From a virus, in the IMG/VR virus record IMGVR_UViG_3300017986_000126, positions 1-25,108 of that record: a DNA stretch of 25,108 nt. One strand, written 5' to 3'. Below the pieces are notes generated by a model that made no database searches, was not told the origin of the DNA, and saw only the letters and a list, made by a program, of their open reading frames with translations. A program made the translations under genes and the position numbers. Shown piece after piece: positions 1,714-21,688 of this stretch (position 1 is the stretch's first letter; each line of letters opens with the position of its first letter).

Positions 1714-2373
1714 ATGGCAAACAGTGATAAAAATATCAGTATTAGACCAGAAACAGGTACAGGTAATCAACCAAAAATTACATTTACTGGTTTAAATAAT
1801 ACACCTATAACACTCAACGTCTTAGATGATAACAGTCTAAGTTGGGAAAGCAGTGTTGGACAGTTGTTTAGTATTACACCTAGTTTAACAGGTACAATTT
1901 TTAGCGTCAATGACGTATCCGGTGTTCCTAGTATTGAAGTTGAAGACTCTGGTCTAGTTAAAATTGCACCATTCAGTGGTAACGTACTAATGGGTTCAAC
2001 ATCAGATACTGGTGCAGGTAAACTACAAGTTACAGGTACAATCACTGCAACAGGCGAAGTTACTGCTTATTATTCTGATGAAAGATTAAAAACTTTTGAA
2101 GGTACTATTCCTAATGCACTTGAAAAAATTATGAGTCTAAACGGTTATTATTTTGTTGAAAATGATTTAGCAAAAAGTTTAGGGTTATCAAACAATAAAA
2201 AACAAGTCGGTGTTAGTGCTCAAGAAGTACAAGCAGTGTTACCTGAAGTAATTGCACCGGCTCCGGTTAACAACGATTACTTAACAGTAAAATATGAAAA
2301 ACTTGTGCCATTATTAATTGAAGCAATTAAAGAATTGAAAGCAGAAGTTGATGAACTCAAAAAGGCAAAATAA
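1714..2373 (+). CDS. Tail fibre protein with C-terminal peptidase S74 (intramolecular chaperone) domain
   Basis: A 219-residue protein. Residues 1-115 are a beta-rich, Thr/Gly/Ser-rich stalk. From residue 120 it has the full set of S74 (endosialidase-type chaperone) landmarks: YYSDERLK, in which Ser121-Asp122 is the expected autocleavage point, then GVSAQEVQAVLPEV, then the pair VKYEKLVPLLIEAIKELKAEV. In this family the C-terminal domain drives trimerisation of a beta-helical fibre and then cuts itself off. The stalk is short for a fibre, so this may be a tip or a short spike that joins a longer fibre. An AGGA site lies 7 nt before the ATG and a late promoter core just upstream. The domain call is strong; the place of the fibre in the particle is not known. 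Confidence 0.88.
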   Translation: MANSDKNISIRPETGTGNQPKITFTGLNNTPITLNVLDDNSLSWESSVGQLFSITPSLTGTIFSVNDVSGVPSIEVEDSGLVKIAPFSGNVLMGSTSDTGAGKLQVTGTITATGEVTAYYSDERLKTFEGTIPNALEKIMSLNGYYFVENDLAKSLGLSNNKKQVGVSAQEVQAVLPEVIAPAPVNNDYLTVKYEKLVPLLIEAIKELKAEVDELKKAK

Positions 2374-2617: not shown

Positions 2618-2992
2618 ATGAAAACCTTATTTGAAGTACTAAACATTGATTTAGCACAAGAGTATACCAAAGAACGTAAACAAGCAGCAGTAGATGCACT
2701 TGACTTATCTGCAGATCTTGCAGCAGAAGTAACAGCAGCTATTGCAGCTATGGATATTCCAGAATCAGACGAACGTCATCATTGGATTCAAAAACTTGGC
2801 CGTGCAGCAGGTGCAGACTTGCTTACACTAGGTAAAGTACAACCAGAAAATATGCTTGCAATGGCAGCTCTTTCAGAAGAAGACTTCCAAGAAGCAGTTA
2901 AAGTAGCAACAGGCAGTGCAAGAAATCTAAATAAACTAACTGTTGATGCTGAAAAAGATCTAAACCAAGAAACAATTAATACAACTATCTAA
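2618..2992 (+). CDS. Hypothetical protein, 124 residues, helical
   Basis: The frame is open from 2573, but the ATG at 2618 is preferred because AGGAG at 2607-2611 lies 6 nt before it and the earlier start would lie inside the 58-residue gene. The product starts MKTLFEVLNIDLAQEY and is predicted by eye to be mostly alpha-helical, with Ala-rich stretches (DLAAEVTAAIAAMDI, ENMLAMAALSEEDFQEA). There is no signal peptide, membrane segment or recognisable catalytic motif. The stop overlaps the start of the glycosyltransferase gene (TAATG), so it is translated in the same unit. I do not recognise the family. Position suggests a virion accessory or a partner of the glycosyltransferase genes, but nothing in the sequence decides this. 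Confidence 0.65.
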   Translation: MKTLFEVLNIDLAQEYTKERKQAAVDALDLSADLAAEVTAAIAAMDIPESDERHHWIQKLGRAAGADLLTLGKVQPENMLAMAALSEEDFQEAVKVATGSARNLNKLTVDAEKDLNQETINTTI

Positions 2993-3576
2993 TGCGTCTT
3001 AGTATATGTGTTCCAGCACGTGATCAAGTCCACACGGCTTTTGCAATTAGTCTTGCTAATCTTACAAGCAGGCTCACAGCAAAAAATATAGATTATGAAT
3101 TGCATTTTGTATTAGGAAGTGTGATTGCAGAATCAAGAACTAGACTTGCTAACGAAGCACTTGATCACAGTGCAACACACATACTATGGTTAGACAGCGA
3201 CATACACTTTCCTGCAAATATTGTTGATAAGTTAAATTCTCACAACAAAGATATTGTTGCAGCAACATACAGCACACGCTATGCTCCTTATAAAAGTGTA
3301 GCATTTGTTGATCCAGATAACATTGATGCTAGACTTGAAGAAACTCGAGGATTGCATAGAGTTTGGGCAGTAGGAATGGGATGCATGTTAATGAAAGCAC
3401 ATGTGTTAGACATTCTGCCTAAGCCTTGGTTTAGTCATGAATACAATAAAAAATTAGACACCTTTGGTGGCGAAGATATATATTTTTGTAACCAAGCAAT
3501 GCATCACGGAATATTAGTACACGTCGATGCAGATATTAAAATTGCACATATAGGAAGTAAGGCAAACGTATTATGA
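2992..3576 (+). CDS. Small GT-A fold glycosyltransferase (family 2-like)
   Basis: A 194-residue protein that begins with the first strand of a GT-A fold (LSICVPARDQV). It has a hydrophobic strand ending in the metal and nucleotide-sugar binding D-x-D motif (ILWLDSDI, Asp68 and Asp70), then an AVGMGCMLM segment, an acidic FGGEDIYF motif near residue 160 (typical of the general base region) and a late His (KIAHIG). This is a compact but complete-looking catalytic core; no membrane segment is present, so it should act in the cytoplasm. Substrate cannot be inferred. It is coupled to the next gene by an ATGA overlap, and that next gene carries repeated, mostly degenerate glycosyltransferase-like units. 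Together they may modify a virion protein, such as the fibres encoded just upstream, or a host glycan. Confidence 0.75.
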   Translation: MRLSICVPARDQVHTAFAISLANLTSRLTAKNIDYELHFVLGSVIAESRTRLANEALDHSATHILWLDSDIHFPANIVDKLNSHNKDIVAATYSTRYAPYKSVAFVDPDNIDARLEETRGLHRVWAVGMGCMLMKAHVLDILPKPWFSHEYNKKLDTFGGEDIYFCNQAMHHGILVHVDADIKIAHIGSKANVL

Positions 3577-6182
3577 GAGCTATTGACAGATTCAATCGTT
3601 TTGGAACAGAAGTATACAATGGGCAAGACCAATTAAAAAATCATATTTTTGATCATTATCCTGTTGTACACACCGAAGAAGAAATCAGCGATTGGCAAAA
3701 CTCTAGCGAATACGTTTGGTTAGTAGATTCAAACATAAAAGTTTATGATAGTTTTCCTTGGTACTTCAAACCTAACCCCGACGAAGAAAAATCTATTCAT
3801 GCATTTCCTTATGTATACAAGGAAAGCAGAGAAGTTAAAAGTTGGGAAATGGTGCGATTAGTTCCTACTGCAACTGGCAACTACAGTACAAAGAAATACA
3901 AATACATTTGCGGTGATTATGACGTATATCAAGGCAAAGATTCGTTTGATATCTTTTATGTGTCAGATGATCCAAGAGATTATTTTTCAGAATTACAAAA
4001 ACGTTTTCCAAATATTATCTATGTCAACAGCATTAAAAAAGCAAAAGAATTAACACAAACCGATATGTTCTGGGTTATTCCAGGTGACGTAATTGTTAGA
4101 GATACATTTAAATTTAGTTACAAGCCTGACGAATGGAGTCACGACTATGTACACGTATTTGGCAACGGCGACATTGATCAATTAGACGGTGTAATTCTTT
4201 ATCCTAAAAATTATGATGCAACAGAAAAAGAATTAGAGTATAGATTTTTCAAAGATAAAAAAGAAGTGCGTATTATGGCAAGTACTCCACGCCAATACGA
4301 CAAATTTGAAATCAACAACTACGAACAATATCAACATGCATTAAAATATAGTTCTACCGATATGTTTTGGGGCATACCACAAGACATTGAAGTTACTGAC
4401 GAAAGTGTATTTGATTTGTATATTAGCCATCACAGCAAAGACACAGAAAAAAATCATGTATGGTTAAACGGAAACAAATATGACGGTGTTGTTCTTTTTA
4501 GTAAACACGCTCCTGTTACAGAAAAAGAAATCAAACACAGATTTGTAGTTAACAGAATTGAACACAATCAAATTGTAAGTTGCAACAAAACGTTTGATAG
4601 ATTTGTAGTTGACAATTACGAAGATTATCTCGAAGCAAAAAAACATTCAACTACATCAATGTTTTGGATGATTCCTTCAGATGTAGTACAATCCGAAGAG
4701 TTTGCATGGGATGGATATTTTGAAAATCAAGATGCATTAGATCGAACAACTACACATGTATTTTTAAATGGTGAGCACACAGACGGTATTGTATTAACCA
4801 GTGTTAACAGCAAACTTACACAAAAAGAAGTTGACAATAGATTTTACATTGATAAAAAAGAACACAATGTAATTGCAAGTACTCCGTTTCCATACGAACG
4901 GTTTGAAATTAACAATTACGAACAGTACACGGAAGCACTGTACAATTCCAAGTATCAAATGTTTTGGGGTGTGCCCAGTGACGTAGAAATAACCAACGAC
5001 AAGTTGTTTGATACATATTTTAGTCATCATAACAAATACGATAGAACTATTAATCATGTTTTCTTAAACGGAGAAAACTACGATGGTGTTGTATTGTTCA
5101 GCAAAGACTGTTTGGTGAGCGAAAAAGAAGTTGATCATAGATTTTATGTGAAGAAAAAAGAATGGGATGCTGTTATTAGTAAACCTAAAAAGTTTGATGT
5201 GTTTAGAATTGACTCGTATGCAGAATACGAATCAGCAAAAGAAAATTCTACAACAGACATGTTTTACTTGGTTTACAGCGATATTGATGTATTAGATACG
5301 TTTAAGTTTGATCATTACATTAGTCATCATAATCAATATGAACGTAAAATAAATCACGTATGGAAAAATGGCGAATACTATGATGGTATTGTACTAACAA
5401 GTAAACACATACATTTGACTCCTAGAGAAATTGATTTTAGATTTATGGCAATCAAAAAAGAATATGATGAAATTGCTAGTATGCCTAAAAAATATGAAGT
5501 TGTGTTTATTAGTAATGGCGAACAGAATGCTGATGATAACTATGAGAAATTACTAGAAAAGGTAGATGCTTGGAGAGTTGATCGTGTTAAAGGCATTCAC
5601 CAAGCACATATTGCAGCAGCAGAAAAAGTTAGTACAGAAATGTTTTGGGTAGTTGACGGCGATGCAGAAGTATTAGATGACTTTGAGTTTGACTATCAAA
5701 TTGCACACTATGACATTGATGGTCGTAATACTGTACATGTATGGCGTAGTTTTAATCCAATTAACGGACTAGTGTATGGCTACGGCGGTGTAAAATTATT
5801 ACCAACTGAGTTAACTAGAAATGTTGACATTGATGCACCGGATATGACAACAAGTATTAGTAATAAGTTTAAGGGCATTAATAGAATGAGTAATACTACT
5901 GCGTTTAATACAGATGCATTTAGTGCATGGCGTAGTGGTTTCCGTGAATGTGTAAAACTTGCAAGTCGTGCAATTGATCGACAAAACGACGAAGAAACAG
6001 AGTTTAGACTTAACGCATGGTGTGATCGTGGTGCAGATAAACCGTTTGGTGAATATGCTATTGCTGGTGCAAAATTAGGACGCAAATACGGCGAAATTTA
6101 CAAAGATAACAAAGAAGCACTGGCAAAGATCAACGACTTTGAATGGTTGAGAGAACAATTTAATCTATCGTCATCTCAATAA
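3573..6182 (+). CDS. Large protein of repeated, degenerate glycosyltransferase-like units with one intact unit at the C-terminal end
   Basis: An 869-residue protein made largely of one module. The core of each unit is MFW-(4 residues)-D, then an NHVW/VHVF strand, then a YDGVVLFSK-like strand and a basic HRFxxxKKE segment. Unit cores start at residues 165, 264, 363, 463 and 563, a spacing of 99-100 residues, with a weaker copy near residue 47 and a last, longer unit at 690. Only the last unit keeps a D-x-D pair (VVDGDAEV, Asp695 and Asp697). The first Asp is Pro in units 1-4 and Tyr in unit 5, while the copy near 47 has D-S-N. The C-terminal 120 residues hold Trp/Cys/Arg-rich segments with no clear family. 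The start overlaps the upstream glycosyltransferase stop (ATGA). The repeat is directly visible. Relation to GT-A enzymes is inferred from the D-x-D unit and the neighbour; the repeats may bind glycan or act as scaffold. The 3' end overlaps the convergent Nudix gene by 23 bases. Confidence 0.7.
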   Translation: MRAIDRFNRFGTEVYNGQDQLKNHIFDHYPVVHTEEEISDWQNSSEYVWLVDSNIKVYDSFPWYFKPNPDEEKSIHAFPYVYKESREVKSWEMVRLVPTATGNYSTKKYKYICGDYDVYQGKDSFDIFYVSDDPRDYFSELQKRFPNIIYVNSIKKAKELTQTDMFWVIPGDVIVRDTFKFSYKPDEWSHDYVHVFGNGDIDQLDGVILYPKNYDATEKELEYRFFKDKKEVRIMASTPRQYDKFEINNYEQYQHALKYSSTDMFWGIPQDIEVTDESVFDLYISHHSKDTEKNHVWLNGNKYDGVVLFSKHAPVTEKEIKHRFVVNRIEHNQIVSCNKTFDRFVVDNYEDYLEAKKHSTTSMFWMIPSDVVQSEEFAWDGYFENQDALDRTTTHVFLNGEHTDGIVLTSVNSKLTQKEVDNRFYIDKKEHNVIASTPFPYERFEINNYEQYTEALYNSKYQMFWGVPSDVEITNDKLFDTYFSHHNKYDRTINHVFLNGENYDGVVLFSKDCLVSEKEVDHRFYVKKKEWDAVISKPKKFDVFRIDSYAEYESAKENSTTDMFYLVYSDIDVLDTFKFDHYISHHNQYERKINHVWKNGEYYDGIVLTSKHIHLTPREIDFRFMAIKKEYDEIASMPKKYEVVFISNGEQNADDNYEKLLEKVDAWRVDRVKGIHQAHIAAAEKVSTEMFWVVDGDAEVLDDFEFDYQIAHYDIDGRNTVHVWRSFNPINGLVYGYGGVKLLPTELTRNVDIDAPDMTTSISNKFKGINRMSNTTAFNTDAFSAWRSGFRECVKLASRAIDRQNDEETEFRLNAWCDRGADKPFGEYAIAGAKLGRKYGEIYKDNKEALAKINDFEWLREQFNLSSSQ
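4011..5490 (+). repeat. Five tandem ~300-bp coding repeats inside the 869-residue gene
   Basis: The codons for the MFW/MFY core fall at 4065, 4362, 4659, 4959 and 5259, spaced 297, 297, 300 and 300 bases. The copies have diverged at DNA level but keep protein landmarks (FEINNYEQY, MFWGVPSD, YDGVVLFSK). Boundaries are approximate. The regular period points to tandem duplication of one module. Confidence 0.8.
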
Positions 6183-6594
6183 CACGAAACACTGTTTCTA
6201 ATTTTTGTTGATTAGTTTTACGTCTAAGTGTGTTGGCCAATCCTGTATGCAAAGGCTTTGGCCAATTACCAAAACTAACCCAAGCATATCCGTCATGTTC
6301 GGCATTTAATACAGGAATAAATTCTTTTTCTACTATACACAAATAAGTGTGAAACAAAAAATGTTCATCATTGCTTATAAAAGTTTCCAGCGGTATTGCT
6401 TTTTTAATTGTAGTATCGCCGATTTCTTCTTGTATTTCTCTACGCAAGCCTTCCCAAGGCGATTCACAGGCTTCGTTGGTTCCGCCTACTAATCCCCATA
6501 CATTTGATTGTTTGCTTTGTGTTCGATGCAAAAACAAAAATCTATTGGTATCAAGTGTGTAAAATAATGCACCACTACAGATAATTTTATTCAT
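6160..6594 (-). CDS. Nudix hydrolase
   Basis: A 144-residue protein with an almost perfect Nudix box, G-x5-E-x7-R-E-x-x-E-E-x-G (Gly38, Glu44, Arg52-Glu53, Glu56-Glu57, Gly59); the Glu residues bind the metal that drives hydrolysis of a nucleoside diphosphate linked to another group. The last Nudix-box position, usually hydrophobic, is Asp60. Length fits a single-domain Nudix enzyme. Possible substrates include oxidised nucleotides, nucleotide sugars, NAD-type compounds or capped RNA; the sequence does not decide between them. It lies 13 nt downstream of gp15 on the same strand with no clear ribosome site, so it is probably read from the gp14-gp15 transcript. Its last codons overlap the end of the convergent 869-residue gene by 23 bases. 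Confidence 0.85.
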   Translation of the reverse strand: MNKIICSGALFYTLDTNRFLFLHRTQSKQSNVWGLVGGTNEACESPWEGLRREIQEEIGDTTIKKAIPLETFISNDEHFLFHTYLCIVEKEFIPVLNAEHDGYAWVSFGNWPKPLHTGLANTLRRKTNQQKLETVFRVIEMTID

Positions 6595-6607
6595 ACAAAT
6601 AGTTATC

Positions 6608-8530
6608 TTATAGTCCGAGTGACCATGTGCCGTTTTTATAATATCCGTCTACACTTAAATGCCAAATATAACCATTCCAATAGTACTGTTGTTTGGTATA
6701 CAAGTTGGTAACATATGTAAATGTTTTGGTTTCACTGGCATCGAGTACAATGTGCCAATTGCTGCCGTCCCATTCAACAATGTCATTAGCGTCTGCCATA
6801 AAGTCAGTACCATCTGCATTTTTCCAAGCATCAGGCCCGTCATCATTTAGGTTAAAGATATATGTTACAACATCACCTTCGTTGGCTTGTTGATTAAGTT
6901 GTACAACTACTTTGTTATCTATTTCTTTTAAAGAAGCACCAACTAGTGTGTTGTTTACGTATACAGCAAACTCGTTTACAGTATCAGCTAACCACCATGT
7001 TGCTTTAAACACATAAAGTTTTTCTAAATCTGTTCTATAGAACAAATCGCCTTCTGTTGGTGAACTAGGAAAACTTGTACCTTCTGCAACTCCTGCTGGT
7101 TTTACAATATCATCGATGTAATAATCTAAATCAGTTTCAAATCTTATAGTTGGTGTTGATACAGTTATTTTTCTTTCTACTTTATTACCAATAGGACGAA
7201 TCATCAACAAACGCAATCCTGGATCTTTAAATTGGGTAGGATTAAAACGTCTCGGATCGATAAAGTAATCAATGCCGCCACCAGTAGTAACAGGTCCTTC
7301 GATTATTGTATCGTCGGGTATTGTATCTTCGTCCCAAGTAATAAGTATTTCAAATTCGTTATCCGGGTTTACTGTTATTGTTCCTGTGATAGGAATAGTT
7401 CTATCAACTCTTCTTAGTCGAACTTCGCTAATACCTGGTTGATATTGTGCTGGTAATTCAGCCTTGAATATTTCTGCCCAAGAGATTTGTTTTTCTTCAA
7501 ATCCTGGATTCTTCATTAATATTGCAGTTTCGTTTTCTACGTATAAGCCATAATTGCGATAGCTGGTTACAACAGGGCCTGTAATTCTATTGCCGTCTTG
7601 GTTTACTGCTAATGTTTTAGTCATCCATATAGTATGTTCATCTACTATTGTACCGTCGGCTAATATAGTTTTACCGTCTGGTGTGGTAGATACATTATTA
7701 ATTGGAATGCCATTGTTATACACAACCCCTTCTAAGTCTGTGGTTATGTTATCACTATAATCGCTGCCTTCTCCAATATCGTTGATATCCAATATGCCGT
7801 CACTTGACGATGTATTGGTATCTGTATCAGGATTGAATCCGTCTAGACTAATAGTACCTTGATCTAAATTAATAACACTAGTAATGATGTCTGTAATAAC
7901 ACCAAGTTTTTTAACTTTAGTAGGAGGTGAAATATATATAGGAGCAGTAAATCCTAATGTAGCAACATCAATATCACTTTCTGTTCCTGTAGGAATACTT
8001 CTACTACTAAAGTCTACAGTGCCTAATTCTAACACACTTAAACTGGTCCAATCAATATAATTGTCAGTGGTTTGTATTTCTAAACTTGGATTGAACAGCA
8101 TCATAATCTGTTCTAGTATTTGTAGTTTTTGATCTGTGTTAGTACTCCATACATCTACATTAACACTTAATGTATAAGGTGTGGGCATTAAGCGTTCAAC
8201 TGTATAACTTTTACCTTGTGTGTTAAGATATTCTTGTCCGTTTTCGTCATACGCACGTTCACGTATGTTAATCTTATTGACATAGCTGCTATCACTTAAA
8301 CGTGTTCTGTCTAGTTCTAATCCAGTGATATACACACTCATTCGTGGAGCACTAGGTATTTTGTTTTCGGAGTTATCTCTAATAATATTTGCAACTTGAC
8401 GTGTTAAGTCACCATACATCACCGGAATACGTACTAGGTTTCCGTCACCGTCTTTGTAACTAAAATGACTAAATGCTCTGACTATCTGTGTTAGATATCT
8501 ACGTATCTGACCGTCGTAAAAATGTTGCAT
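6608..8530 (-). CDS. gp15: Tail terminator / proximal sheath stabiliser gp15, with a long C-terminal extension
   Basis: The first ~215 of 640 residues follow T4 gp15 as I remember it: FYDGQIRRYLTQIVRAF (T4 has FYNSSFRRYATLMGDLF), VRIPVMYGD, a PRMSVYITGLELD strand, then PTPYTLSVNVDVWS, QILEQIMMLFNPSLEI and a late GFTAPIYISPP. T4 gp15 forms a hexameric ring that ends the tail tube and sheath and joins the neck. T4 gp15 is 272 residues; here about 420 extra residues follow. They begin with an acidic Ser/Asp/Thr linker and include three short aromatic modules of the G-D-x-[FYW] and W-(N/D)-G-x-x-W kind, near residues 490-520, 581-597 and 611-628. The start shares one base with the gp14 stop (TAATG on the minus strand). 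The core assignment is fairly strong; the extension is unexplained. Confidence 0.8.
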   Translation of the reverse strand: MQHFYDGQIRRYLTQIVRAFSHFSYKDGDGNLVRIPVMYGDLTRQVANIIRDNSENKIPSAPRMSVYITGLELDRTRLSDSSYVNKINIRERAYDENGQEYLNTQGKSYTVERLMPTPYTLSVNVDVWSTNTDQKLQILEQIMMLFNPSLEIQTTDNYIDWTSLSVLELGTVDFSSRSIPTGTESDIDVATLGFTAPIYISPPTKVKKLGVITDIITSVINLDQGTISLDGFNPDTDTNTSSSDGILDINDIGEGSDYSDNITTDLEGVVYNNGIPINNVSTTPDGKTILADGTIVDEHTIWMTKTLAVNQDGNRITGPVVTSYRNYGLYVENETAILMKNPGFEEKQISWAEIFKAELPAQYQPGISEVRLRRVDRTIPITGTITVNPDNEFEILITWDEDTIPDDTIIEGPVTTGGGIDYFIDPRRFNPTQFKDPGLRLLMIRPIGNKVERKITVSTPTIRFETDLDYYIDDIVKPAGVAEGTSFPSSPTEGDLFYRTDLEKLYVFKATWWLADTVNEFAVYVNNTLVGASLKEIDNKVVVQLNQQANEGDVVTYIFNLNDDGPDAWKNADGTDFMADANDIVEWDGSNWHIVLDASETKTFTYVTNLYTKQQYYWNGYIWHLSVDGYYKNGTWSLGL

Positions 8531-9705
8531 TAATTATCCGCCTTTGGTTTTAGTGCTTTACTTAGAGACTGTCTTTCTGGTACAGTTTCGCCTGCAATTA
8601 CATCAGTGTTTGTATTATTAATAAATTCACCTTTTAGCGTATTTCTGTTGCTGTTAGGCGTCATGTTTGTTCTTACTTTATCTTCTACTTTCACCCAAGT
8701 GTTCCCATTAAATCTAAAAAGTCTGTTAGGTAAGAAATCAGTTCTCAAATAGTAATCGCCATCAAAACTTTCACTCGGAAAGCCCGCTCCTACTCCATAA
8801 GGTGCACCGTTTGGCGGCAACCCATCTCCTACCAAGTATCCTAAATATCCTGCACGTTCCGGAGGACGCATAACAATGTCAACTGGTGTTATGCCATCAA
8901 CAGTTAAACCAGTTGCATCAACTGTAACGATTTCAATTTCACCTGTGCTATCTACTTGTATAGTATAATAATGATTTATGTTATAACCACTTAACGGTGC
9001 GTCTGCTTCGGCTTGTGCTACCACAGCATCGCTGATCTGCATTTCTTTATCATATGTTGAAAGTAAATCTCGTAGTGTATCGCCGTTTGGATTTTCTTCA
9101 TCAGCAGGTAAATCAAGTATGTCTTTGTACTCTTGACTATCTACAATTTGTTTTAGTTTTAATCTATACAAATGCGGATACCATGTTTGACTAAAACCTT
9201 CACTTGCTCTGTTAACATCTTCAACCACATAAAAACGTTTTAATGCTATAGACAAATCATTTAATGCGTATTCGTCTATCAAATGAGGTAACTCAATAAC
9301 ATCACCGCTTATAATCTTTCTGCCAATGGTTTTAACACTACTGTTCATGTGTATTGTTAAAAATATAGTATCGTTACTTAAAAACAAACCAAACTGTCTT
9401 AAATCAAAGTCGTTGTCTTGCACATTATAATGACCACGCAGCCTATAAATGTTTTCATCATACTTGCGATCTCTGTTTTCTAAAAACAACAAATCTTGTA
9501 TGTTTGTTTCGCTTTGTGTTGTGTAAAGAGGTTGATCCGCAGTATTTTCTGTGTTTTCGTCTGTAGGTAAAGCATCAAGTTTTGGACCTAGATACTTGTG
9601 TACAAAAACATCAGTACCGCCAACAGTGAATTGTTCAAAGATAATTTTATCTAAGAAATCATAATCTTTACTTTTTTCTGGTCTGTATAAACTAAGTCTT
9701 GGCAT
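8530..9705 (-). CDS. gp14: Neck protein gp14
   Basis: I choose the ATG at 9705 (391 residues, starting MPRLSLYRPEKSKDYDFLDK). The frame is open further upstream, but that part would run into gp13, and other ATGs at 9711 and 9720 overlap the promoter motif. The order of landmarks matches T4 gp14: a GGTDVFVHKYLGP strand, LLFLENRDRKYD (T4 LIFGEDLKNKF), then DLRQFGLFLSNDTIFLTI (T4 FSNFGMQVQDEVTLSI), then GDVIELPHL and a RFYVV strand. gp14 helps join head to tail. Beyond residue ~210 there is an extension absent from T4 gp14, including SFDGDYYLRTDF with FRFNGNTWVKV (residues 313-344), a module also seen in gp15 and gp18. It lies immediately before gp15, as in T4, but this pair is inverted relative to gp13. 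The homology is remote but supported by gene order. Confidence 0.72.
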   Translation of the reverse strand: MPRLSLYRPEKSKDYDFLDKIIFEQFTVGGTDVFVHKYLGPKLDALPTDENTENTADQPLYTTQSETNIQDLLFLENRDRKYDENIYRLRGHYNVQDNDFDLRQFGLFLSNDTIFLTIHMNSSVKTIGRKIISGDVIELPHLIDEYALNDLSIALKRFYVVEDVNRASEGFSQTWYPHLYRLKLKQIVDSQEYKDILDLPADEENPNGDTLRDLLSTYDKEMQISDAVVAQAEADAPLSGYNINHYYTIQVDSTGEIEIVTVDATGLTVDGITPVDIVMRPPERAGYLGYLVGDGLPPNGAPYGVGAGFPSESFDGDYYLRTDFLPNRLFRFNGNTWVKVEDKVRTNMTPNSNRNTLKGEFINNTNTDVIAGETVPERQSLSKALKPKADN

Positions 9706-9710
9706 ATACA

Positions 9711-9718
9711 TATTTAGC
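9711..9718 (-). promoter_or_regulatory. Late promoter core GCTAAATA for gp14-gp15-Nudix
   Basis: Read on the minus strand, GCTAAATA ends 5 nt before the ATG at 9705. The identical octamer precedes gp18. A T4-type late start about six bases downstream of the motif would put the first mRNA base at or next to the ATG, so the gp14 message may be leaderless. It abuts an opposite-strand core. Confidence 0.55.
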
Positions 9719-9725
9719 ATAAATA
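9718..9725 (+). promoter_or_regulatory. Late promoter core CATAAATA for gp13
   Basis: CATAAATA lies 16 nt before the gp13 ATG, with GGAG at 9731-9734 as ribosome site. The following bases extend the match to ATAAATACTTGTG, identical to the sequence before gp19. Confidence 0.65.
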
Positions 9726-9741
9726 CTTGTGGAGACAAACT

Positions 9742-10503
9742 ATGGCTGATACAACTACTGAAAAACAAGAAATTTTTAACTACGTGGAAGCATTCCTTGG
9801 CGGAGGAATGGTAGACGTTGAGCTTGATCCTGTTCATTACGAAACAGCATTGAAAAAATCATTATCAAAATATAGACAGCGTAGTGAAAATGCTGTTGAA
9901 GAAAGTTATGTTACATTGCCAATAAATCAAGATGTTAATGAGTATACATTACCACAAGAAGTTATCGAAGTACGTAAAATTTACAGACGCAGTGTAGGTA
10001 GTAGATTAGGCGGCAGTGCAGATGGCGGTAGTTTGTTTGAACCTTTTAACCTAGCATACACAAACACATACTTGTTAGCAGGCAGCGGCATTGGTGGTTT
10101 AGCCACATATGATTTCTTTGCACAACAGCAAGAATTAGTTGGACGTATGTTTGGCTCGTTTATTGAATTCAAATGGAATACTTCAAACAAAAAATTAACA
10201 ATATTACAGCGTCCAAGAGCTGACGAAGAAATATTGTTATGGTGCTATAATTTTAGACCAGACTTTGAATTGTACAAAGATTACAAAGCATATCAATGGA
10301 TCAAAGATTATACACTAGCAAACTGCAAATATATGTTAGGCGAAGCACGTAGCAAGTTTAGCACTATTGCAGGTCCTGGGGGCGGTACAACATTAAACGG
10401 CGACACATTAAAAAATGAAGCACAACAAGAAATGGAAAAACTTGAAAAAGAATTAGACATGGCTTCAGCAGGTGGCGTTGGTTACGGCTTCTTAATAGGA
10501 TAA
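9742..10503 (+). CDS. gp13: Neck protein gp13
   Basis: A 253-residue protein starting MADTTTEKQEIFNYVEAFLG at the ATG at 9742; GGAG lies 7 nt before it, and the longer TTG frame would overlap that site. The N-terminal part (VEAFLGGGMVDVELDPVHYETALKKSLSKY) resembles the opening of gp13-type neck proteins, followed by a YTLPQEVIEVRKIYRR strand. The central FIEFKWNTSNKKLTIL strand and the late DYTLANCKYMLGEARSKFS helix also fit head-tail connector proteins. Gp13 binds the portal side of the neck with gp14. T4 gp13 is somewhat longer (309 residues). The C-terminal end is a Glu/Lys helix followed by a Gly-rich tail. The assignment rests on remembered family features and on divergent gp14-gp15 neighbours. 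Confidence 0.7.
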   Translation: MADTTTEKQEIFNYVEAFLGGGMVDVELDPVHYETALKKSLSKYRQRSENAVEESYVTLPINQDVNEYTLPQEVIEVRKIYRRSVGSRLGGSADGGSLFEPFNLAYTNTYLLAGSGIGGLATYDFFAQQQELVGRMFGSFIEFKWNTSNKKLTILQRPRADEEILLWCYNFRPDFELYKDYKAYQWIKDYTLANCKYMLGEARSKFSTIAGPGGGTTLNGDTLKNEAQQEMEKLEKELDMASAGGVGYGFLIG

Positions 10504-19156: not shown

Positions 19157-21688
19157 ATGAAAATCTTCGAGGTCACTAGTAGAACTAAAAAAATAATCAA
19201 TGAAATCACAGCTGAAGATTTGTTAGCAGGTCTTAGAGATCGTTTAACCAGTAGAAATTATGATCGTACCGTAAGTTGGATCGAAGATGACTATAATAAC
19301 TTTGCAACACAAGAAGATGTTGATCGCTTTCTACAAGACGCTGCAGAATCTCATGACAACTTTTTTCAAATGCCGTATGCTCGTGCTGCTAGAGAAGCAT
19401 TATTTGCTGTAAATGTTAGTGCAGGTCGAGTTGAAGATACAGGCGAAGAGCCAATTGTACCATTAGATACAGTAACAGACGATCCTGAAGCAGCCAACCA
19501 AGCTGCCGCCGATGCAGCAATTGATAGTCGTATGAATAGCGATGCAGCAGCACCAAGTGAAACACCGGCACCGGCATCTGTTAGAGATTTAGGCAATGGG
19601 TTTGAACAAATAACAACTACAGTTCTCGGTCAAGAAGTTACAGGTGTGCGTGACACTAGATCAAATCTTGTGTTTGTTAGAAATCAAGACAGTGACGGCA
19701 ATGCACTTATTCGTAGTCCTGCTCAATATCTTCAACTAGGCGACAACGGCCAATTAAGAGGTACTACTCCAGGTCCTGAAACTATGAGAGCGTTAACACA
19801 AGCAGGAATCGGTCCTGAAGGCAACGACGAACCAAGCACAGGTCCGGATGACGGATCAAGAGCAGGGCAAGAACCAAACAGACCAGTTACAGCACCAGAG
19901 CCTCAAGGAGATCCATTAGGTGGCGAAGCACCAACAGGTCCCGGCGGTGATGAACCATTACCGCAAACAAGAACAGAACCGAGAACAGCAGCACCGCAAC
20001 GTCAATCTGGTGAATTTAATGCAGACGGTACTGTTGCTGGACCTGGTCAAGCAGCAAGACCTGGTTCAATGACTAGAGGTGCAACACCTACCCAAGCTAA
20101 TGCAAATAGAAATACTCAAGCACCAAGCAGATTACGTATTAGACAAACTATTGCTCCAGCAGTACAAAGATTACTACAATTAGCAAACGAATCGATTGTT
20201 GGTTATAGAGCTATTGTAGAAGGCAAGTCGGTGTTAGAAGCACTCGATCCGCCACAACGTCAACAACTACAACAATACTTAGATCAGATGCGAGCAGCAG
20301 CACAAAACGATCCTGAAGTAAACAACGAGTTTGGCGACCTGATGGCTCGTATGGAAAGAGCATTAGGTATAACACAACCGCAATCGGGTGCAGGCGATGA
20401 AGCAGCAGCACAAGCAGCAATAGCACAACGTCAGGCAGGAACACCAGCACCAGGTACAGGCAGTCTTGATGCAGCTCAAGCAAGTGCCCAAAGGGCTCCA
20501 GCAGCATCAGCAGCATCAGCAGCACCAGCAGCACCAGCAGCAGTATCAGCAGCACCGGCAGCAACACAAGGTAGATATAGTGTTAGAAGAGAAAACGCAG
20601 GTGGACGTCAAATGTTTGCTATTATTGATGGCGAAACACGTATGCCTGCACGTTTAAGAAGTACCAATGTATATTATAATACACAAGAAGAAGCACAAGC
20701 AGTAGCAGATAGATTAAATCAAAACAATGTTCAAACTGTACCACGTGTAGGCGAACCAGGAAACGAAATACCAGGTCAAACTAGTGCAGCACCACAGACA
20801 TCTCCTCGCCCACAAGCAAGACCAGATCAAGCAGCACCAAGTGGATCAGAAGATGACGCAATGGCACAACCAGTTGCTCAAAATGCAGCAAGTCAAGCAG
20901 CAACAGCAAATGCTCAAGATTTTACACTAACTGGTAATTTACGTAGAGGTAGTAGTGGTCCAGAAGTTGAGCAATTACAACGTGCATTAGGTTTCCAAGA
21001 TGCAGAAGTTGATGGACGTTTTGGTCCAAGAACAGAACAAGCTGTAAGAACATTCCAACAAAACCAAGGACTACAAGTAGATGGTATTGTTGGTAGACAA
21101 ACTTACAACAAGATCTTACAAACAAGAGAAGATCCAAGAGCACAGCGTAATGCAGGTGTAGGAAGAATTGGTCAAGTTGCAGCACCAACACAACAAAATC
21201 AAAGTATAGATATGACAGGAAAAGAAATGGCAAAATTAGATGAAGCAAGTTTAACAGTAAATGGTTCAGCAAGCGAAATTGCAGAGCTAATGCGTATGAT
21301 GCAATTAGCAGGTGCACCAAGTGCAAAACCTGTCGACAGCGATGATATTAGTAGTCACATACACAAACCAGAACCATCACCGTGCGGTGCTAAACCAGAA
21401 CCGAGCATGGGAGATATGATTAGCATGATCAGCAAAGAAGAGGAAGAAGTAGATGGCGACTTCCAAGATGCTACAACTGAACCAGATAACTATTATCAAG
21501 ATGTAAGTGCTAGTATTCCTTCGGGCAATGATTTAAACAGACCTAAAGATCGTAAAGCAATACGTACAGTTGATCCTGCATTAGAAACAACTTTAAAAGA
21601 TAGTTTGTTACAAGCATATGAAGGCAAGTACAAATCGGATGCACAGCGTAAAGCTATTTGGGCATCTAAATCAGAAAAGAAGAAATAA
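19157..21688 (+). CDS. Large Pro/Ala/Gln-rich virion protein with a peptidoglycan-binding domain
   Basis: An 843-residue protein with the strongest ribosome site of the window (AGGAGG at 19146-19151, 5 nt before ATG). Order: a helical N-terminus (MKIFEVTSRTKKIINE...); long low-complexity Pro/Ala/Gln/Thr-rich linkers (about 205-330, 400-470, 525-588); a small compact unit at 472-524 (GRYSVRRENAGGRQMFAIID to EAQAVADRLNQNN); and a clear PG_binding_1 domain at 591-655 (LRRGSSGPEVEQLQRALGF, then VDGRFGPRTEQAVRTFQ and VDGIVGRQTYNKIL). A segment near 695-720 (LDEASLTVNGSASEIAELM) and an acidic-to-basic tail follow. No lytic active site is visible, so it binds rather than cuts the wall. A role in the injected or tail-tip apparatus is inferred. 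A terminator follows it directly. Confidence 0.68.
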   Translation: MKIFEVTSRTKKIINEITAEDLLAGLRDRLTSRNYDRTVSWIEDDYNNFATQEDVDRFLQDAAESHDNFFQMPYARAAREALFAVNVSAGRVEDTGEEPIVPLDTVTDDPEAANQAAADAAIDSRMNSDAAAPSETPAPASVRDLGNGFEQITTTVLGQEVTGVRDTRSNLVFVRNQDSDGNALIRSPAQYLQLGDNGQLRGTTPGPETMRALTQAGIGPEGNDEPSTGPDDGSRAGQEPNRPVTAPEPQGDPLGGEAPTGPGGDEPLPQTRTEPRTAAPQRQSGEFNADGTVAGPGQAARPGSMTRGATPTQANANRNTQAPSRLRIRQTIAPAVQRLLQLANESIVGYRAIVEGKSVLEALDPPQRQQLQQYLDQMRAAAQNDPEVNNEFGDLMARMERALGITQPQSGAGDEAAAQAAIAQRQAGTPAPGTGSLDAAQASAQRAPAASAASAAPAAPAAVSAAPAATQGRYSVRRENAGGRQMFAIIDGETRMPARLRSTNVYYNTQEEAQAVADRLNQNNVQTVPRVGEPGNEIPGQTSAAPQTSPRPQARPDQAAPSGSEDDAMAQPVAQNAASQAATANAQDFTLTGNLRRGSSGPEVEQLQRALGFQDAEVDGRFGPRTEQAVRTFQQNQGLQVDGIVGRQTYNKILQTREDPRAQRNAGVGRIGQVAAPTQQNQSIDMTGKEMAKLDEASLTVNGSASEIAELMRMMQLAGAPSAKPVDSDDISSHIHKPEPSPCGAKPEPSMGDMISMISKEEEEVDGDFQDATTEPDNYYQDVSASIPSGNDLNRPKDRKAIRTVDPALETTLKDSLLQAYEGKYKSDAQRKAIWASKSEKKK
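20496..20563 (+). repeat. GCA-rich triplet repeat coding an Ala/Ser/Pro linker
   Basis: Imperfect repeats of GCAGCATCA and GCAGCACCA encode a run of Ala with Ser, Pro and Val inside the 843-residue protein. It is a flexible-linker microsatellite that may vary in length between related genomes. Confidence 0.7.

Follow-up and report, generated by a model that had tools for sequence, protein, structure and literature searches.

Among described glycosyltransferases (GTs), K4CP, MGAT4A and TarS join a catalytic GT to further GT or non-catalytic binding domains, which in TarS take the form of C-terminal modules. MGAT4A has a lectin domain (PMC9296478). In phages, DNA-base glycosylation is a frequent job of GTs (PMC13216743, PMC13390438). 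Pelagimyophages carry GT and radical-SAM genes beside their tail-fibre genes, an arrangement interpreted in the relevant passages as host-surface modification (PMC7029224), and large aquatic phages, the moraphages, are described as having core GTs (PMC12619734). The passages on these GT regions propose that they modify host surface glycans or virions (PMC7029224, PMC12619734).

Here we analyse a GT-like gene with serial repeats in a 25,108-base IMG/VR record, referred to below as the window. Judged by its gene content, the source is an uncultured T4-like tailed phage. Genes for a tail sheath, a gp15-like sheath stabiliser and a T4-type terminase were recognised with Pfam and PHROGs, and the nearest cultured records to the terminase are PA5oct-like jumbo phages, at 55% identity.

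The array gene and its setting

The array protein has 869 residues and comprises a divergent first unit, five repeat units (R) and a complete C-terminal domain (C). The features of the locus are as follows.

1714-2373, plus strand: fibre-type protein with a Peptidase_S74 chaperone domain, upstream neighbour (Pfam PF13884, E 2e-11; tail-fibre PHROGs)
2992-3576, plus strand: partner glycosyltransferase, 194 aa, with D-S-D (Pfam Anp1; phrog_1574; upstream of the array in the lineage)
3573-6182, plus strand: array glycosyltransferase, 869 aa, divergent unit 1, five R units and complete C domain (family HMMs; start inside the ATGA overlap)
3573-3938, plus strand: divergent N-terminal unit 1, residues 1-122, triad D-S-N (D52-S-N54), recognisable only weakly as the same unit (hhalign to R 92.6%, E 5e-7)
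3996-4283, plus strand: R unit 1, residues 142-237, triad P170-G-D (HMM matches)
4287-4580, plus strand: R unit 2, residues 239-336, triad P269-Q-D (HMM matches)
4584-4880, plus strand: R unit 3, residues 338-436, triad P368-S-D (HMM matches)
4884-5180, plus strand: R unit 4, residues 438-536, triad P468-S-D (HMM matches; within the high-confidence model)
5181-5480, plus strand: R unit 5, residues 537-636, triad Y568-S-D (HMM matches; within the high-confidence model)
5493-6149, plus strand: complete C-terminal GT-like domain, C, residues 641-859 (HMM; model pLDDT 95.5; GT-A PDB matches)
5655-5663, plus strand: D695-G-D697 of the C domain (D-x-D in 151/153 C domains, NGD in the other two)
6160-9837, minus strand: block of Nudix, gp15-like and 435-aa genes (between plus-strand late genes; order constant across the lineage)

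The 869-aa reading frame and all seven triads were found exactly where the first-pass annotation had placed them, and the repeat period of 99-100 residues that it had claimed in the middle of the protein was borne out. Comparison of the protein with itself gave sharp peaks at offsets of 99 and 100 (best 60-residue BLOSUM sums 135 and 185); the remaining offsets between 80 and 139 gave 25 or less, except for 127 (112), the step that leads to the last unit. Because the self-comparison peaks so sharply, and with the family census described below, chance repeats were rejected. Ahead of R unit 1, from residue 125 on, stands what is left of a GT domain's N-terminal half; the other R units have no such remnant.

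The upstream gene had been described as a small GT fused to the array gene by an ATGA overlap. Its identity as a GT stands, since the 194-aa protein passes the curated cutoff of Pfam Anp1 (PF03452; 33.0 versus 28.8 bits; partial match, 44-97), and so does the ATGA overlap, at 3573-3576; the two genes only overlap, however, and are not fused. The protein also matches phrog_1574 (E 7e-23), a family of unknown function, and its gene lies directly upstream of the array in 43/43 checkable distinct loci of the window's lineage. Kinship with N, a second GT paralogue of about 300 aa found in other members of the family and related to C (hhalign 100%, E 5e-43), was rejected on a profile comparison of only 0.5%; as the 194-aa GT thus shows no link to N, the partner GTs differ between the two groups.

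The array gene lies downstream of concanavalin/laminin-G-like and Peptidase_S74 fibre-type genes (Pfam, PHROGs), from which it is separated by a 139-aa ORF and then the 194-aa GT. The earlier placing of the gene beside the fibre genes is therefore upheld by Pfam, PHROGs and the gene order of relatives, in which tail-fibre and lectin-like genes adjoin. Downstream follows an inverted block encoding a Nudix protein, a gp15-like protein and a 435-aa virion-type protein, and the order S74 fibre, 139-aa ORF, 194-aa GT, array, inverted Nudix and gp15 is conserved in the lineage. In the window, the Nudix ORF runs tail to tail into the array gene and overlaps its end. In the 640-residue product of 6608-8530 (minus strand) the match to T4 gp15 (PF16724) covers only the first ~220 residues, and an 843-aa late-region protein (19157-21688, plus strand) has a PG_binding_1 domain (E 2e-16) within a long low-complexity chain.

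Within the 25 kb of the window there are no sugar-nucleotide or radical-SAM genes. Neighbours in other members of the family include radical SAM/SPASM proteins, a GDP-mannose-dehydratase-like epimerase and a UDP-glucose-dehydrogenase-like enzyme. As judged from sequence, the gene context of the relatives fits glycan modification, with the fibre, the host surface or another structure as candidate targets. In two loci from metagenome-assembled genomes (MAGs) the C domain is itself fused, to a radical SAM/SPASM protein (L139:6804-8705) and to two GT2 domains (L137:7992-11648).

The family and its D-x-D pattern

IMG/VR was scanned with two queries, the whole protein and the C domain, which gave relatives at 40-100% identity in at least about 600 stretches. 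A scan of GTDB genomes added 11 MAG loci, mostly from Bdellovibrionota. The cellular origin of these MAG members is only putative because MAG contigs can include phage. A census was then taken over 212 loci from IMG/VR and bacterial MAGs, with D-x-D counted over distinct domains. The architectures seen are C alone, R1-7C, R16C (L112) and NC; since the 212 loci overlap in places, architecture counts over them are not counts of independent contigs. Single enzymes of 227-238 aa make up the majority of relatives.

Repeat number ranges from 0 to 16 across the family and changed at least 24 times on a tree of C domains (n = 120). The window's lineage has 45 distinct complete arrays, with five R units in 38, three in 5, six in 1 and seven in 1. 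All Bdellovibrionota members are without repeats and fall outside the phage members, a branching order that is tentative because it depends on midpoint rooting with long branches. The longest array (L112:1429-6972; 1,848-1,855 aa) has 16 R units and C in a three-unit super-repeat; three unit types recur in order, which suggests expansion by blocks of three. Two loci (L083:4362-6669 and L085:3910-6217) have an array spread over two overlapping reading frames, RRRR and then RC, which may represent a split gene, a frameshift or an assembly error. A tail of ~230 aa past the GT domain, bringing the length to more than 1,050 aa, occurs in 11 of 53 distinct lineage relatives (among them L008:1731-5033, L009, L010, L013, L030 and L032); in L008 it matches the Pfam sterol/lipid carrier family SCP2 above cutoff (E 6.8e-5), hinting at a lipid-linked substrate.

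The D-x-D motif is present in 0/281 R units, 151/153 C domains and 71/71 N paralogue domains. At the first position of the R-unit triad nearly all units have P, W, Y, S or N and none has D; at the third, D stands in 202/281. Because none of the 281 has a D-x-D, we do not class the R units as glycosyltransferases. Profile comparison shows R to be homologous to C (hhalign 98%, E 1.8e-13), whereas derivation of R from N is unsupported (2.8% vs 98% for C). Of these two candidate sources only C is detectably related to R, which makes C-type domains the most likely origin of the array.

The first-pass annotation had seen one catalytic-looking unit and six units inactivated in a consistent way. The first part stands in that the last unit is GT-A-like and the rest are its relatives without D-x-D, but these are not merely point-inactivated, having lost their ends too. 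Consistency likewise holds family-wide for the R units and fails for unit 1, whose loss is the opposite, the first Asp being retained and the last Asp gone; in 13 distinct relatives the unit 1 triads are DKN, DSN, DPT and similar. From its motif, C (220 aa) is the sole unit predicted to be capable of catalysis, and by the usual GT-A chemistry the rest are not.

Sequence comparison also indicates that the R units are under purifying selection. In the 41 pairs whose divergence allowed an estimate, the median dN/dS was 0.086 in the array and 0.056 in C. Identity between units that occupy the same position in different proteins is 57-70%, compared with 37-56% for other positions within one protein, and the best match lay at the same position for 205/210 units.

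Predicted fold and database relatives

An AlphaFold2 model of residues 437-869 (two R units and C), built from an alignment of 102 sequences, gave a pLDDT of 95.5 and a pTM of 0.87, with pLDDT ~98 at the unit junctions. It replaced an earlier model from 9 sequences (pLDDT 68.6), which had already given glycosyltransferase matches in the PDB. The confident junctions and high pTM favour rigid stacking of the units over a beads-on-a-string arrangement. In DSSP order, R in the model corresponds to a central part of C that begins one strand ahead of the D-x-D strand and runs through the long strand near the end of C; R is without the first strand and helix of C and without its five C-terminal helices.

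When the deep-alignment model was compared with the PDB using Foldseek, all 50 matches listed were GT-A glycosyltransferases (best E 1.4e-5, prob about 1.00), including K4 chondroitin polymerase, ArnC, WrtF, GalNAc-T2, TarS and RmlT. TM-scores to known GT-A structures were modest (at most 0.39 by target) and rmsd was large, as expected because the match is a partial one of a three-unit model; the resemblance was found in local structure rather than in global superposition. The last unit had been expected to prove GT-A-like on structure prediction with fold comparison, and these matches, together with the weak Pfam Glycos_transf_2 similarity, agree with that expectation. For the array protein as predicted, the GT-A fold is well supported, though short of proof, by local structural matches and weak profiles. 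The best BFVD matches, A0A6J5LK21 (804 aa, E 4e-27) and A0A6J5L5L5 (1076 aa, E 1e-26), are proteins of uncultured Caudovirales phage annotated only as uncharacterised; their lengths fit array members and, from the predicted structures, they are probable members of the family.

Sequence libraries gave little for the array protein itself. No Pfam family scored above cutoff, Glycos_transf_2 (PF00535) reaching 16.4 vs 23.3 bits; weak matches to it occur in 11/22 C domains and, at E up to 0.1, in 17/102 relatives. There was no match in PHROGs (best E 0.4) or NCBIfam, and tblastn against 50,697 GenBank phage records, from which near records of the window are possibly excluded, found none for the array or the C domain and only chance-level matches for a single unit. 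The TET-associated glycosyltransferase family (PF20691) did not match the window protein, A2, A5 or single-domain members. Several candidate relatives were rejected: no sequence-level PDB relative was credible; mitochondrial TFAM matches of A5 (E 0.01) fell in the repeat part, were of low-complexity character and are at odds with the fold result; and the profile similarity between C and a GT2 domain of L137 was too weak to be used (1.5%). Open-licence PMC papers yielded no description of such arrays. The earlier remark that no such architecture had been described thus agrees with our finding no known family above cutoff in Pfam, or in PHROGs, NCBIfam, GenBank phages and open-licence papers.

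Possible roles and known systems

We consider it fairly probable that the protein is a GT-A enzyme carrying a rigid, non-catalytic array of its own core and that it acts on a fibre or surface glycan together with its partner GT. The C domain would transfer a sugar, together with the partner, and the two would build or alter a short glycan carried by the phage fibre or by the surface of the host. The five to six truncated copies of the core would form a rigid, non-catalytic stack that extends the enzyme, and this array might hold or space the acceptor chain and/or the partner. For the array itself, holding or spacing of the acceptor would be the most likely role, with a docking scaffold for the partner as the main rival. 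A more specific version, in which the array is a variable-length track for an acceptor polymer and phages tune glycan length or specificity by adding or removing repeats, seems to us rather unlikely.

As an assembly scaffold, the truncated cores would dock or oligomerise the partner GT(s), and array length would set the stoichiometry of the complex with no contact to glycan. The partner GT directly upstream in 43/43 lineage loci, the existence of NC fusions and the position-specific identities of the units all suit such docking, as does the N-type GT that adjoins 19/28 repeat-bearing members outside the window's lineage. There, however, an N-type GT is counted as equally common beside repeat-less C genes (39/72 adjacent), so that the partnership does not need the array, and we hold the scaffold to be a tentative possibility. 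The protein could instead be a virion component, an adhesin or fibre accessory, in which the GT-like domains are lectin-like modules and the D-x-D is kept for binding rather than catalysis. Variable-length repeat arrays are typical of fibres, and the gene lies downstream of the S74 fibre and Laminin_G-like genes in an order conserved in the lineage. Yet D-x-D is kept in 151/153 C domains and constraint is stronger on C than on R, the majority of relatives are single enzymes, radical SAM or other GT domains are joined to some bacterial-MAG relatives, and a second GT gene always accompanies the array in the lineage, all of which makes a structural role distinctly improbable.

Glycosylation of phage DNA bases, as by the T4 glucosyltransferases or TET-associated GTs, would be in keeping with a frequent role of phage GTs (PMC13216743, PMC13390438), but among the members tested the only TET-associated match lies in one bacterial fusion, within a different GT2 domain, and the genes nearby, as far as 25 kb shows, are fibre and sugar genes rather than base-modification genes; we regard this as very improbable. 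Least credible of all is that the repeats are decaying duplicates without function. The R units have indeed lost the donor site and both domain ends, but dN/dS shows selection on the array and so contradicts neutral decay, which was rejected; the five-unit organisation is moreover constant in 38/45 complete distinct lineage arrays, and the units are position-specific.

An enzyme with a rigid array of its own core remains the reading that we prefer. Pseudo-enzyme arrays built from their own core, with patterned donor-site loss and labile copy number, would offer a natural test of how acceptor binding or scaffolding evolves in GTs, and comparing lengths across the natural series of 0-16 repeats can put the role of the array to the test. 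The family is common in uncultured aquatic phages (at least about 600 contigs) and absent from the searched family libraries and cultured phage records, so that many 'hypothetical' proteins gain a likely enzyme class.

The predicted C domain matches the GT2-like GT-A enzymes K4CP, TarS, RmlT, WrtF and ArnC structurally (prob about 1.00). As in these enzymes, its D-x-D ends a strand that is followed by a short strand, and it has weak Glycos_transf_2 similarity; unlike them, the array protein passes no Pfam cutoff, and sequence identity is only ~7-17%. To our knowledge none of the five carries truncated copies of its own core in an array. The pelagimyophages (PMC7029224) and moraphages (PMC12619734) are likewise T4-like or large aquatic phages in which GT, nucleotide-sugar and radical-SAM genes lie close to those for tail fibres, as far as the relevant passages go, and repeat arrays are not described in those passages. 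In K4CP, MGAT4A and TarS the catalytic GT is likewise joined to additional domains, whereas the modules added here, 1-16 in series, are shortened versions of the enzyme's own core and all lack D-x-D. The enzyme class is thus a known one, while the build is new as far as the searched libraries and open-licence papers tell.
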